NCBI GenBank assembly: GCA_024638845.1
Contig: JAHEJN010000002.1
Location: 64,838-96,966, forward strand
Source: Acidimicrobiales bacterium
GTDB lineage: Bacteria > Actinomycetota > Acidimicrobiia > Acidimicrobiales > JAHEJN01
Reading direction: 5' to 3'
Length of the DNA stretch: 32,129 nt
The number at the start of each line of letters is the position of its first letter. The stretch's first letter is position 1. Shown here in pieces: positions 6,824 through 12,319 of the stretch. The notes under the pieces are model-generated. The model had not been told where the DNA came from. It saw only the letters and a list, made by a program, of their open reading frames with translations, and did no database searches. The translations under genes and the position numbers were made by a program.

Positions 6824-7564
6824 ATGGTAACGACAGATGACGCGCTTTCGGGAGATCTGGCCACCGAGGCAGGCGTCCTGTTGCTGGCCGTCCGTGCCGA
6901 GCTCGCCACCGCCGAAACCCGGATGCTGAGGGACGAGGGCGATCGCCGATCGCACGAGCTCCTCATGACCCGCCTGCGCGAGCACCGTCCCCACGACTCG
7001 GTGCTGTCCGAGGAGGGCGCCGACGACCACGCCCGGCTCGAGGCCGAACGGGTCTGGATCGTCGACCCGCTCGACGGGACCCGGGAATTCTCCGAACCGC
7101 CGCGAGCCGACTGGGCCGTGCATGTCGCCCTGTGGCAACGAGGCGAGCTCGTCGCCGGTGCGGTGGCGCTTCCCGCCCACCGCGCAACCCTCACGACCGA
7201 CCCCGCTCCCTCGTTTCCCGAACCGGTGGCCGGTGCGCCTCGCATCGTCGCCAGCCGCACGCGGCCCGGCCCCGCGGCCGCCGCGGTCGCGGCCGCCCTC
7301 GGCGGTCAGCTGCTGTTCATGGGCTCGGCCGGAGCGAAGGCCATGGCGGTGGTCCGCGGCGAAGCCGACGTGTACGCCCACACCGGTGGCCAGTACGAAT
7401 GGGACTCGGCCGCGCCGGTGGCCGTTGCCCTGGCTGCAGGGTTCCACGCCAGCCGCGCCGACGGTTCTCCCCTCGTCTACAACCAGGCCGACCCGTATCT
7501 GCCCGATCTGTTGATCTGCCGTCCGGAACTGGCCGCCACCTGCCTCGAGGCACTGAACCCTTGA
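6824..7564 (+). CDS. cysQ: 3'(2'),5'-bisphosphate nucleotidase, CysQ/IMPase family
   Basis: This 246-residue member of the inositol-monophosphatase superfamily probably hydrolyses PAP to AMP, removing the inhibitor left by PAPS use. Metal-binding motifs are present: SEEG at about residues 62-65, VDPLDGTREF at about 81-90, and WDSAAPVAVA near the C-terminus. Divergent placement from cysDNC supports CysQ over a generic inositol phosphatase. The ATG at 6824 follows AGGAAG at 6813-6818, which could act as a weak Shine-Dalgarno; TAGGAA at 6812-6817 could instead be an imperfect -10. Its stop overlaps the possible TTG start of the next gene in a TTGA arrangement. Confidence 0.85.
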   Translation: MVTTDDALSGDLATEAGVLLLAVRAELATAETRMLRDEGDRRSHELLMTRLREHRPHDSVLSEEGADDHARLEAERVWIVDPLDGTREFSEPPRADWAVHVALWQRGELVAGAVALPAHRATLTTDPAPSFPEPVAGAPRIVASRTRPGPAAAAVAAALGGQLLFMGSAGAKAMAVVRGEADVYAHTGGQYEWDSAAPVAVALAAGFHASRADGSPLVYNQADPYLPDLLICRPELAATCLEALNP

Positions 7565-9699
7565 GCGGCACCGCCCCCGACGCCGCGCCTCCCGATCTCG
7601 CCGTCGGCAGCTACAGCGACTCGGCTCCGTGGATCGTCGAGCCCGACGCCCTGGTGTGGCGTCGAGGCCTCGACCGACGCCGCACGCAGGTTCAGGCCGC
7701 AGTGCCCGGGTTGTTGACGCCGGGTCGCATTCCGCCACTGCGCCGCACTCTCGCAACGATCTGGCATCTGGGTCGGGCCATCGTCGTGTGGGCCTTCCGT
7801 GAGCGAGGCCGGGCCAACTCGCGAGCCGGGATCTCCCGACGTATGCGCTTGGCCTGCGAGGCGCTGGGCCCCACCTACATCAAGCTCGGTCAGATAATCT
7901 CGTCGGGCGAAGGCGTGTTCCCCGACGAGCTGGTGAGCGAGTTCCGGTTGTGTCGCGATCGCGTTCCGGCCGAGCCATTCGAGGTCGTGAGGGCCATCGT
8001 CGAAGCCGACCTCGGCGCGCCGCTCTCCAGCACGTTCAGCGAGTTCGACCCCACGCCGCTCGCGGCTGCGTCGATCGCCCAGGTGCACCGAGCCGTCCTG
8101 CGCACTGGTCCCGACGGAGCACCGGTCGAGGTCGTGGTGAAGGTGCAGCGTCCCGCGATCGCCGAGGTGGTGCACCGCGACATCAGGATCCTCGCCTGGT
8201 TGGCTCCCCACCTCGTAGGGCGGATCCCGGTCGCCTCGCTGGCCAACCCGCCCGCGCTCGTCGAGCTGTTCGCGCAGACGATCGTCGAGGAGCTCGACTT
8301 CCGGCTCGAGGCCGAGAACATGGTCGACGTGGCGCGGTCGTTCATCGATCTCGATCAGTCCGGGTACGTCGTTCCGCGCCCTCATCCCGAGCACGTGACC
8401 GAGCGGGTCCTGGTGATGGAACGCCTGGTCGGTTTCGCCTTCGACGACATCGAGGGAATGGCGGCGGCCGGGGTCGATCTGCAACGGGTCGTGCGCACCG
8501 GCATGATCGGGTTCATGGAGGGATGCATGATCCACGGCATCTTCCACGGAGACCTCCACGGAGGAAACCTGTTCGTGCTCCCCGACGGCCGCACGGCGCT
8601 GCTCGACTACGGCATCGTCGCCCGTCTGCCCGAGTCCCGCCGCATCGCTTTCCTCCGCCTGCTGATAACCGGAACAACCGGCGACATCGAGGGTCAGGTC
8701 GCCGCCATCCGCGATCTCGGTGCCCTGCCCGCCGACACCGACCTGCGCCGGGTGATCGACGACCTCGACCTCGAGGCACCGACCATCGATCCCACCACCC
8801 TCGACCCCGACGAGCTGGTCGACGAGGTCAACCGCATCGTGAAGGCGCTCCTGGGTTACGGCGCCAGCATGCCCAAGGAGCTGATGCTGTTCGCCAAGAA
8901 CCTGGTGTTCGTCGACTCCGCCATCGCCACCATGACCCCGGAGGTCGACCTGCTCGGCGAGATCGCCCATCTGGCGCAGTACTTCGCGCTCAACCACGGG
9001 GAACGGATCGCCACCGACGTCGGCATCGACCCCACCGGCTACACGATGGACCTCAGCTCGGTGAAGGCCGGCTTCGGCGTGACCGACGAGGTCGACTCGC
9101 TCACCTATCAGGAGCTCCAGCAACGGCGTGAGCTGATCAGCCGCCGGCTCCAGAGCCACACGCAGCGGGGCTCACGAGTTCGTCGTACCCTGCGTGCGGC
9201 TCGATCCGTGGTGAGCCGCAAGGCCGCCATCGCCCTGGTGATCGTCGCTGTCGTCGCATCGAGCTGTTCGAGCGATCCGATCGTCGACCAGGCCGACCCC
9301 TCGCCCTCGGCCACCACGATGCCCGAGCCGACCCCGCCACCCGACCCCGAGCCGACCCCGCCACCCACGGCCGAGCCGAGCGCCACGCCGGCGCCGACGA
9401 CCGCGGCCTCCGACGACAGCATCGACATCGCTACGGCCCTCGAACGATCGACGAGCGGCCTGCTCACCGTCGACGGCTTCCTGGTCGTCGTCGACGACAC
9501 CGTTCGCCTCTGCTCGGCGTTGGACGAGTCCTCCCCGCCGCAGTGTGGCGAGCCGTCGGCGGTGGTCGAGGGCCTCGACCTCCAGACCGTTCCCGGCCTG
9601 GTCACGAGCGACGGTGTCGCCTGGACGGCCGACCGCGTCCAGCTCACGGCCATCCTCGTCGACGGGCTCCTCGACATCGTCGACGTCAGCCGCGAATAG
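7561..9699 (+). CDS. ABC1/UbiB atypical kinase-like protein joined in frame to a lipoprotein-like tail
   Basis: This encodes 712 residues from the TTG at 7561, which overlaps the cysQ stop as TTGA; no ATG or GTG precedes the conserved region at a plausible place. Residues of about 80-450 are an ABC1/AarF/UbiB domain: KLGQ near 107, the Ala-rich loop AAASIAQVH near 167-175, Lys in VVVKVQRP near 194, the catalytic loop HGDLHGGN near 330 and the metal-binding DYG near 350. UbiB-type proteins act at membranes, often in isoprenoid quinone metabolism. After about residue 540 comes a hydrophobic helix (KAAIALVIVAVVASSC, Cys569), a Pro/Thr/Glu-rich linker and a domain of about 90 residues with two cysteines. 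That tail alone looks like a small actinobacterial lipoprotein. In-frame GTG codons at 9208 and 9211 would start it exactly as a signal peptide. It may be a genuine fusion, a nested second gene, or a lost stop. Confidence 0.82.
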   Translation: MSGTAPDAAPPDLAVGSYSDSAPWIVEPDALVWRRGLDRRRTQVQAAVPGLLTPGRIPPLRRTLATIWHLGRAIVVWAFRERGRANSRAGISRRMRLACEALGPTYIKLGQIISSGEGVFPDELVSEFRLCRDRVPAEPFEVVRAIVEADLGAPLSSTFSEFDPTPLAAASIAQVHRAVLRTGPDGAPVEVVVKVQRPAIAEVVHRDIRILAWLAPHLVGRIPVASLANPPALVELFAQTIVEELDFRLEAENMVDVARSFIDLDQSGYVVPRPHPEHVTERVLVMERLVGFAFDDIEGMAAAGVDLQRVVRTGMIGFMEGCMIHGIFHGDLHGGNLFVLPDGRTALLDYGIVARLPESRRIAFLRLLITGTTGDIEGQVAAIRDLGALPADTDLRRVIDDLDLEAPTIDPTTLDPDELVDEVNRIVKALLGYGASMPKELMLFAKNLVFVDSAIATMTPEVDLLGEIAHLAQYFALNHGERIATDVGIDPTGYTMDLSSVKAGFGVTDEVDSLTYQELQQRRELISRRLQSHTQRGSRVRRTLRAARSVVSRKAAIALVIVAVVASSCSSDPIVDQADPSPSATTMPEPTPPPDPEPTPPPTAEPSATPAPTTAASDDSIDIATALERSTSGLLTVDGFLVVVDDTVRLCSALDESSPPQCGEPSAVVEGLDLQTVPGLVTSDGVAWTADRVQLTAILVDGLLDIVDVSRE

Positions 9700-9708: not shown

Positions 9709-10368
9709 GTGCGTCTGGTCCTCGCTCGCTGTCAGGTCGACTACGACGGCCGTCTCACCGCCCATCTCCCCATGGCACCGCGGCTCATCATGGTGAAGGC
9801 CGACGGCTGCGTCGCGATCCATGCCGACGGTGGCGCCTACAAGCCCCTCAACTGGATGAACGCCCCCAACCGCCTCGTCGAGACCGACAGCCGGTGGACG
9901 GTCACCAACCCGAAGGGCGAGTGCCTCGTGATCACCATCGACGAGATCATCTCCGACACCAGCCACGAGCTCGGCGTCGATCCCGGTCTGCGCAAGGACG
10001 GTGTCGAGGCGCACCTCCAGGAGTTGTTGGCGACCGACCCCACCGCCATCGGCGCCGGCTTCACCCTGGTGCGCCGGGAGTTCCCCACCGAGATCGGCCC
10101 GGTCGATCTGCTCTGTCGCGATGCAGCCGGGTCGGCGGTTGCCGTCGAGGTGAAACGGCGGGGCGAGATCGACGGCGTCGAGCAGCTCGCGCGGTACATC
10201 GAATTCCTGAATCGTGACCCGAATCTGGCGCCCGTGCGCGGCGTCTTCGTGGCCCAGGAAGTCAAGCCACAGGCCAAAGTCCTGGCCGGCCAACGCCACA
10301 TCGAGTGGGTGGTGATCGACTACGACGAGCTGCGGGGCATCGAGTCACCCGAGCCGCGCCTGTTCTGA
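9709..10368 (+). CDS. nucS: Mismatch-specific endonuclease NucS/EndoMS
   Basis: This 219-residue protein cuts both strands at mismatches (notably G-T, G-G, T-T) in the MutS/MutL-independent repair pathway of actinobacteria and some archaea. The N-terminal DNA-binding half begins [16 protein letters not shown], a family hallmark. The RecB-like nuclease site is intact: Asp133 in GPVDLL, Glu147 and Lys149 in VEVKRR, Gln159 and Tyr163 in EQLARY. The C-terminus ends PRLF, resembling the terminal beta-clamp-binding motif described for actinobacterial EndoMS. The GTG start at 9709 is set by the -10-like hexamer and the conserved N-terminus. No mutS or mutL is visible here. Confidence 0.96.
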
Positions 10369-10382
10369 TTCCCCTGGTCCGT

Positions 10383-10399
10383 GGGCGGTGCCTCCGCCC
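10383..10399. terminator. Weak hairpin after nucS
   Basis: GGGCGG and CCGCCC form a 6-bp stem around a 5-base loop, 15 bases after the nucS stop. There is no U tract, so termination is uncertain. TACATT at 10413-10418 may be the -10 element for the following VanW gene. Confidence 0.3.
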
Positions 10400-10447
10400 C
10401 GACGGCGACCAGTACATTGTCTCCCTGCGACATCGTTGCTCCCCACC

Positions 10448-12319
10448 ATGAACGCACGGACTCCGACCGGTGAACTGACCCTGCAAGACAGGCGCGCCAT
10501 CCGCCGCGCCGCCAAGCGTCGCAAGAAGCGCCTCTGGTGGTTCGCCGCACCCGTAGGCATCCTGGTCGTGTTCCTCGTCGCCTTCGCGATCGACGCCGGG
10601 TTGACCAGCGGCAGGACCGCGCGCAACGTCGAGGTCGCGGGCGTCGACGTCGGCAACCTCGACGACGCCGACCTCGATGAGGCCATGGTCGCCATCGAGA
10701 GCGACTTCAGCCGTCGGGCCGTCGAGATCCGGCTACCCGAGTCGACGATGTCGACCAATGCGGCCGACGTCGGTCTGCGCGTCGATGTCGCCGCCACCGT
10801 CGACGCCGTGAACGAGGTCGGAAGCGGGTTCATCGTCACTCGGCCGTTCGGCTGGCTGGGACGGTTCTTCTCTCCGGCGGCGGTCGATCTCCGCTTCGCG
10901 GCCGCCGATCTCGCCGATGCGCCGGCGCTCAGAGAACTCGAGGCGTCGATCACCGCCGATCCGGTCGAGCCCTCGGTCGACCTCGTCGACGGTGAGCTGG
11001 TGCTCGTCGCCGGGCAGCCCGGCCGGGGCATCGCCCCACAGACGATCCTCGACCAGCTCCCGGCTGCGGCCGCAGCCGGCGCAACGCCGATCGTCGTCGA
11101 CGCCGAACCGAGCCCCATCGAGCCGACGGTCTCCGATGGCGACGTGCAAGCAGCGATCGACGAGTGGAACGCGATGACGGCTGCGGGCCTCACCATCTCG
11201 GTCGGCAGTGAGGCCACCAGCCAGTTCGGTGCGGGCGAGCTGCGTTCGTGGCTGACGCTTTCGGTCGACGGCACCGAGATCATCGCCGCCCCCGACGCCG
11301 TGGCCATTCGGGCCATGCTCGACGAGCGCTTCGCCGACGTCGGCGACCTCGGCGCCCCAGGCGATATCACCATCGTCGACGGCGCACCTGTGGCCGAGCC
11401 GGGCGAACCGGGCACCAAGTGCTGCACCGCCGAAGCACCCGACCAGATCTTCGAGGCCATCGAGACGGGAGCGGGCGCAGTCCGCCTCGAGCTCGAAACC
11501 GTCGACAGGGGCGACGACTACCTGGCCGAGCTCGGCATCGTCGAGCTCGTCGGCGAGTTCACCACCAACCACGACTGCTGCCAGAGCCGGGTCACCAACA
11601 TCCAACGACTGGGTGAGATCATTCGCGGCCAGATCGTCATGCCCGGCGATCAGTTCTCGGTCAACGAGTTCGTCGGTCCACGCACGACCGAGAAGGGATT
11701 CGTCGGGGGCGGGGTGATCTACCAGGGAGTGTTCAAATCCGACATCGGCGGTGGCATCTCGCAGTTCATCACCACGTTCTTCAATGCCGTGTTCTTCGCC
11801 GGTCTCGACTACGACACGTACCAGTCGCACTCGATCTACATCTCCCGGTACCCACGGGGACGCGAGGCCACCATCTCGTATCCGGCGCCTGACTTCGCCA
11901 TCGTCAACACGTCGGAGTACCCCGTTCTCATATGGTCGACCTGGACCGACACCTCGATCACCGTCGAGCTCTACTCGACCAAGCACATCGAGGTGACCCA
12001 GACCGGTCAGGTCGACGAAGCCGCCGGCGCCTGTACCCGGGTCACCACGTTCCGTGAGCGCGTGTACCCCGACGGCGAGGTGGTCGAGGACTCGGTGTTC
12101 GCGCTGTATCAGCCGAGCGAGGGCATCGGCTGCGACGGCCGGCCCACGGTGCCACCGACTCCGGCGCCCCCACCCGCCGCGACCCCCGAACCCGAGCCGA
12201 CCCCGCCGCCCGAGGAAACACCGCCACCCGAGCCCGAGCCGACCCTGCCCCCCGAACCACCACCACCCGAACCACCACCACCCGAACCACCACCACCCGA
12301 ACCACCACCACCCGCCTGA
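10448..12319 (+). CDS. VanW/YoaR family cell-envelope protein
   Basis: This is a 623-residue anchored extracytoplasmic protein. A basic N-terminus (RRAAKRRKKR) precedes one membrane helix at about residues 30-50. Two YoaR-like putative peptidoglycan-binding regions follow, at about 60-170 and 210-320. The VanW domain begins near residue 375 and contains CCQSRVTNIQRLGEII, MPGDQFSVNEFVGPRT, GGGISQFITTFFNAVFFAGLDY and HSIYISRYPRGREATISYP. Paired cysteines (KCCTAE, HDCCQS) sit before and in it. The tail is Pro-rich and ends in four tandem EPPPP units. VanW function is unsettled; the family is linked to cell-wall biology and glycopeptide resistance loci by context only. I chose the ATG at 10448; a GTG at 10388 in the same frame gives 20 more residues unlike a signal sequence. 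Confidence 0.85.
   Translation: MNARTPTGELTLQDRRAIRRAAKRRKKRLWWFAAPVGILVVFLVAFAIDAGLTSGRTARNVEVAGVDVGNLDDADLDEAMVAIESDFSRRAVEIRLPESTMSTNAADVGLRVDVAATVDAVNEVGSGFIVTRPFGWLGRFFSPAAVDLRFAAADLADAPALRELEASITADPVEPSVDLVDGELVLVAGQPGRGIAPQTILDQLPAAAAAGATPIVVDAEPSPIEPTVSDGDVQAAIDEWNAMTAAGLTISVGSEATSQFGAGELRSWLTLSVDGTEIIAAPDAVAIRAMLDERFADVGDLGAPGDITIVDGAPVAEPGEPGTKCCTAEAPDQIFEAIETGAGAVRLELETVDRGDDYLAELGIVELVGEFTTNHDCCQSRVTNIQRLGEIIRGQIVMPGDQFSVNEFVGPRTTEKGFVGGGVIYQGVFKSDIGGGISQFITTFFNAVFFAGLDYDTYQSHSIYISRYPRGREATISYPAPDFAIVNTSEYPVLIWSTWTDTSITVELYSTKHIEVTQTGQVDEAAGACTRVTTFRERVYPDGEVVEDSVFALYQPSEGIGCDGRPTVPPTPAPPPAATPEPEPTPPPEETPPPEPEPTLPPEPPPPEPPPPEPPPPEPPPPA
12254..12313 (+). repeat. Four perfect 15-base tandem repeats (EPPPP)
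   Basis: The unit GAACCACCACCACCC occurs four times without a mismatch at the 3' end of the VanW gene, just before the stop. Identity at the third codon positions points to recent expansion by slippage. Copy number probably varies among relatives. Confidence 0.95.

Follow-up and report, generated by a model that had tools for sequence, protein, structure and literature searches.

Does a UbiB/ABC1-type kinase gene that runs without a stop into a lipoprotein-like sequence encode a kinase with an outer domain, two separate products, or two genes that have become one? The question was raised by a 32,129-nt stretch of an Acidimicrobiales genome (GCA_024638845.1, contig JAHEJN010000002.1), here called the window. 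A first-pass annotation had reported such a frame and offered three explanations for it: a new kinase architecture with an outside sensor or lipid-binding tail, one gene yielding both a full-length and a short lipidated product, and a stop lost in this strain.

Layout of the fused frame

The frame was uninterrupted from TTG 7561 to TAG 9699 (712 aa), from the ABC1 domain through the lipoprotein-like part, as the annotation had described (Table 1). After the ABC1 domain it read in frame into KAAIALVIVAVVASSC, and then into the Pro-rich linker and the two-Cys part. Read from GTG 9211, the frame gave 162 aa, in which Cys19 (Cys569 in the numbering of the fusion) is the lipobox residue, and this confirmed the earlier reading of a lipoprotein with this lipid site. 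TTG 7561 is most likely the kinase start and shares bases with the CysQ-like gene's stop (TTGA). The longer mechanical ORF, with GTG 7132 as the kinase start, was rejected because it overlies the cysQ-like gene.

Table 1 Features of the fused frame and of its neighbours in the window. G001 is the other genome of the family (JAOTZB010000126.1).
Feature	Position	Strand	Evidence or remark
CysQ/inositol monophosphatase-family gene, upstream	6824..7564	+	Pfam Inositol_P 8.3e-30; NCBIfam CysQ 3.8e-30, below the NCBIfam cut-off
UbiB/ABC1-type kinase part, residues 1-550	7561..9210	+	PF03109, motifs, identity to G001
Basic C-terminal tail of the kinase, SRVRRTLRAARSVVSRK; expected site of the kinase stop	9172..9222	+	Ungapped alignment with G001
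In-frame GTG, aligned with the ATG of the separate G001 lipoprotein	9211..9213	+	
TGA in the +1 frame, overlapping the GTG (GTGA)	9212..9214	+	Would end the kinase, given a one-base indel upstream
Lipoprotein-type signal, MSRKAAIALVIVAVVASSC; internal signal anchor in the full-length product	9211..9267	+	
Lipobox Cys codon	9265-9267	+	Residue 569 of the fusion
Pro-rich linker	9268..9405	+	
Exported two-Cys OB-fold domain, motif PPQCG	9406..9696	+	Alignment, AlphaFold2 model, YgiW match
Cys codons of the domain	9511-9513 and 9544-9546	+	
Stop TAG of the fused frame	9697..9699	+	
nucS endonuclease, next gene of the conserved cluster	9709..10368	+	NCBIfam NF002876 2e-107

The kinase part matched PF03109 (ABC1) over residues 132-376 (1.2e-57, 195 bits vs. 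a cut-off of 22.9), and the kinase motifs KLGQ, AAASIAQVH, VKV, HGDLHGGN and DYG were present in this order. Because of this match, and with the family motifs intact (KxGQ, A-rich loop, HGDLHxGN, DYG), the kinase part looks functional as judged by its sequence. It shares the ABC1 domain and the kinase motifs with the UbiB/ABC1 family (AarF, ADCK/COQ8; PF03109), but differs from true UbiB in scoring below the NCBIfam cut-off: against TIGR01982, the equivalog model for UbiB of the ubiquinone pathway, it reached 288 bits, short of the curated cut-off of 487.55. The solved structures nearest in sequence were 5yjz, 7cy2 (ABC1 family protein) and COQ8A.

Some orthologues of the window kinase (L081, L082, L083, L085 and L088) carried a strongly hydrophobic N-terminal segment, ITVVRVLGGALIAWFLV, around kinase residue 57, which could be a membrane helix. 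No such N-terminal segment was detected in the window kinase at the same threshold.

Comparison with relatives and the junction at GTG 9211

A total of 109 loci were compared, 29 from whole genomes and 80 from GTDB contigs, with some genomes occurring twice. The window is part of a 97-kb contig in a draft genome (3.7 Mb, 220 contigs). This genome alone represents its genus, and the family is represented by one other genome, G001. None of the orthologous kinases at the 109 loci had an exported tail. All of them stopped in frame, at most 34 codons past the conserved kinase end. The orthologues of this clade have a short and mostly basic tail, usually ending in a basic run, without an evident C-terminal helix by hydropathy only, whereas the exported domain was found in the window's genome alone. 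A kinase-lipoprotein fusion was found neither in the family's other genome, nor in 397 genomes of the order searched by domain profile, nor at the 80 GTDB-contig loci. The fusion was thus observed once, in the single genome of the genus.

In G001, the kinase ends with TGA and is followed by a separate lipoprotein gene and then by nucS. The lipoprotein ATG lies 69 nt after the kinase TGA and is preceded by GAGGAG. The window and G001 kinases were 70% identical over residues 4-549. The lipoprotein part of the fusion was 47% identical to the separate G001 lipoprotein (single-sequence match, 1.3e-21), and because of this identity to a real, separate protein it is not a chance extension of the kinase frame. 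Among the relatives examined, G001 was the only one with a homologue of the tail beside the kinase, and no second copy of the lipoprotein was found in the window's own genome (G000). The flanking genes of the two genomes were co-linear on both sides, and therefore the junction alone differs between them.

These comparisons bear directly on the explanations offered earlier. According to the annotation, its reading would be refuted if relatives consistently had two genes separated by a stop, and as far as one informative relative can show, the arrangement in G001 counts in this way against a new architecture. The loss of a stop is the best supported of the three options, because G001, the only relative with both parts, encodes them as two genes with an intervening stop, and the tail is absent from all other orthologous kinases examined. 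A new architecture, with a cytoplasmic kinase joined to an outside sensor, received no comparative support from the orthologues.

At the junction, the kinase tail SRVRRTLRAARSVVSRK aligned ungapped with SRLDRVRSVARSLRRSG-stop of G001, and MSRKAAIALVIVAVVASSC aligned with MHRLLALAVVVVLLATAC, from the lipoprotein that G001 encodes separately. The homology of the tail to this lipoprotein began at the start codon. The kinase and lipoprotein homologies met at 9211-9222, with an overlap of four codons, and therefore the stop, the spacer and the ribosome site are missing in the window. At the level of the assembled sequence, this comparison demonstrates that two genes, kept apart in the nearest relative, are joined in frame in the window. 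We consider it rather likely that the ubiB and lipoprotein genes of a ubiB-lipoprotein-nucS cluster merged in this lineage, in a nearly neutral event whose product is either anchored or cut.

An assembly or sequencing indel would produce the same picture from two overlapping genes, a kinase ending at the TGA of 9212-9214 and a lipoprotein starting at GTG 9211. The GTGA overlap needed for this is present and is a usual close-packed gene arrangement, and the sequence comes from one draft genome in 220 contigs. In codon usage, the last 14 codons before 9211 preferred the +1 frame over frame 0, a preference shared by 1.6% of this genome's gene 3' ends and by 2.5% of the orthologous kinase tails. 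However, the G001 kinase tail tilts towards +1 as well, although its stop is in frame 0, and this frame test is ambiguous. Charge argues against an indel: the frame-0 tail has a charge of +5, like the orthologue tails (+1 to +9 in 80/80), whereas the +1 frame before 9211 reads AHEFVVPCVRLDPW, without net positive charge. The frame-0 tail also aligned ungapped with the G001 tail with a score of 24, compared with 15 and 11 for the other frames, although shuffles of this Arg-rich tail scored equally well, and it is only composition that backs frame 0 in the alignment test. Taken with this evidence on both sides, an indel appears improbable, yet it is a serious competitor to a true fusion.

The second option of the annotation, that one gene gives two products, would add a 162-aa lipoprotein, started directly at GTG 9211, to the fusion. 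The alignment of GTG 9211 with the ATG of the G001 lipoprotein fits this option, and so does MSRKAAIALVIVAVVASSC, which is a complete lipoprotein signal with a basic n-region, a hydrophobic stretch and a lipobox ending in Cys. Only if GTG 9211 is used is this signal N-terminal in the primary product, but no Shine-Dalgarno sequence is present there. In the 20 nt upstream, anti-Shine-Dalgarno pairing was -1.7 kcal/mol, compared with -8.9 in G001, and even the median internal GTG of the kinase had stronger pairing (-2.7 kcal/mol). There is also no upstream stop, and hence no termination-coupled start, so that the kinase would always be made as a fusion. A short product initiated at this aligned start is unlikely.

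The C-terminal two-Cys domain

Homologues of the domain were detected in 15 of 298 genomes of the order by a single-sequence search and in 27 of 397 with a profile. The window tail matched the domain profile with an E-value of 2.2e-32, from a profile that included the window sequence. Elsewhere in the order the domain was mostly exported, as a stand-alone lipoprotein or as a protein anchored by a single helix: most homologues had a lipobox, and several had one N-terminal helix. In the stretches retrieved around the homologues, no copy other than those of the window and G001 was seen to neighbour ubiB or nucS. Both Cys were invariant across 14 aligned homologues (alignment A2), and in the window tail both Cys, PPQCG, the Trp and the lipobox were intact. 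The stand-alone two-Cys OB-fold lipoproteins of the order share with the window copy the lipobox, an acidic or Pro-rich linker, the two invariant Cys and PPQCG. Among those examined, they differ from it in that only the window copy is joined to a kinase.

Sequence searches of the tail against Pfam, NCBIfam and PDB returned only low-complexity or non-significant matches, and the BOF model was absent among the Pfam matches up to E = 5. The AlphaFold2 model of the tail domain was an OB-fold (pLDDT 88.5), and its top structural match in PDB was YgiW of E. coli (Z 9.4, rmsd 2.2, 77 residues), an exported OB-fold protein. Foldseek gave no match under 0.001 against PDB, and its top matches were mostly OB-folds. 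Many unrelated OB-folds scored Z 7-9 against the tail model, and for this reason the YgiW match fixes the fold of the modeled tail, not its function. The domain has the OB-fold and export in common with the BOF family (YgiW), but differs from it by the two conserved Cys, by the lipid anchor and by the missing match to the BOF sequence model.

Homologues, invariant Cys and structure model together support the annotation's view of the tail as exported and lipoprotein-like. Apart from the fusion, this unnamed exported OB-fold family, which has no entry in Pfam or NCBIfam, adds a little to annotation.

Possible fates of the fused product

If the two genes merged, the kinase stop, a spacer of roughly 70 nt and the ribosome site of the lipoprotein would have been lost, and the basic end of the kinase would now lead into the lipoprotein signal sequence. 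Ribosomes starting at TTG 7561 would then make a precursor of 712 residues, the kinase remaining in the cytoplasm. A hydrophobic segment (about residues 555-568) would send the C-terminal part through the Sec pathway, and Lgt and LspA could modify the chain and cut it before Cys569. LspA may cut the fusion at this site, which would free the OB-fold domain as a lipoprotein on the outside and leave a short membrane anchor at the C-terminus of the kinase. Any molecule that escapes the cut would keep its kinase anchored in the membrane and its OB-fold outside. Since processing would bring back more or less the two products that existed before the merger, the join is probably neutral or close to neutral.

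Two proteins cut from one chain are known from fbcH of Bradyrhizobium japonicum, where the cytochrome b/c1 precursor is cut at an internal signal sequence, like the fate proposed for the fusion product. The two cases differ in that fbcH is an established gene with an ordinary signal peptidase site, whereas the fusion has a lipoprotein signal and occurs in a single genome. A search of the available literature on internal lipoprotein signals and fbcH yielded nothing useful.

The uncut form would have the topology of a transmembrane receptor kinase, in which a ligand sensed by the OB-fold on the outside would regulate the UbiB-type kinase inside via one helix. A basic stretch, a 15-residue hydrophobic segment and an exported two-Cys domain suit such a topology. 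However, the covalent link was seen in one genome only, G001 encodes its parts in two genes, a lipobox lies at the end of the helix, and elsewhere the domain is unlinked to kinases. We regard a receptor kinase as very improbable, and the finding lends no support to a new class of UbiB sensor kinases. It is also doubtful, though less so, that either a single-pass UbiB-type kinase with an outer two-Cys OB-fold or an LspA-dependent kinase-lipoprotein polyprotein is at work in this lineage.

A merger of the two genes, if real, would be a clean natural case of adjacent cytoplasmic and exported genes coming together in one frame. It would also test lipoprotein processing at an internal signal that lies behind a cytoplasmic protein of 550 residues.

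Two observations were made on the neighbouring genes. A literature search found no paper on the ubiB-nucS neighbourhood, a conserved one: nucS lay within about 250 nt downstream of the ubiB-type kinase in 29 of the 80 oriented loci (L057-L136). Downstream of nucS in the window, a VanW-like protein (10388-12319, judged by eye) ended in a long Pro/Glu-rich repeat tail (PEPPPP).
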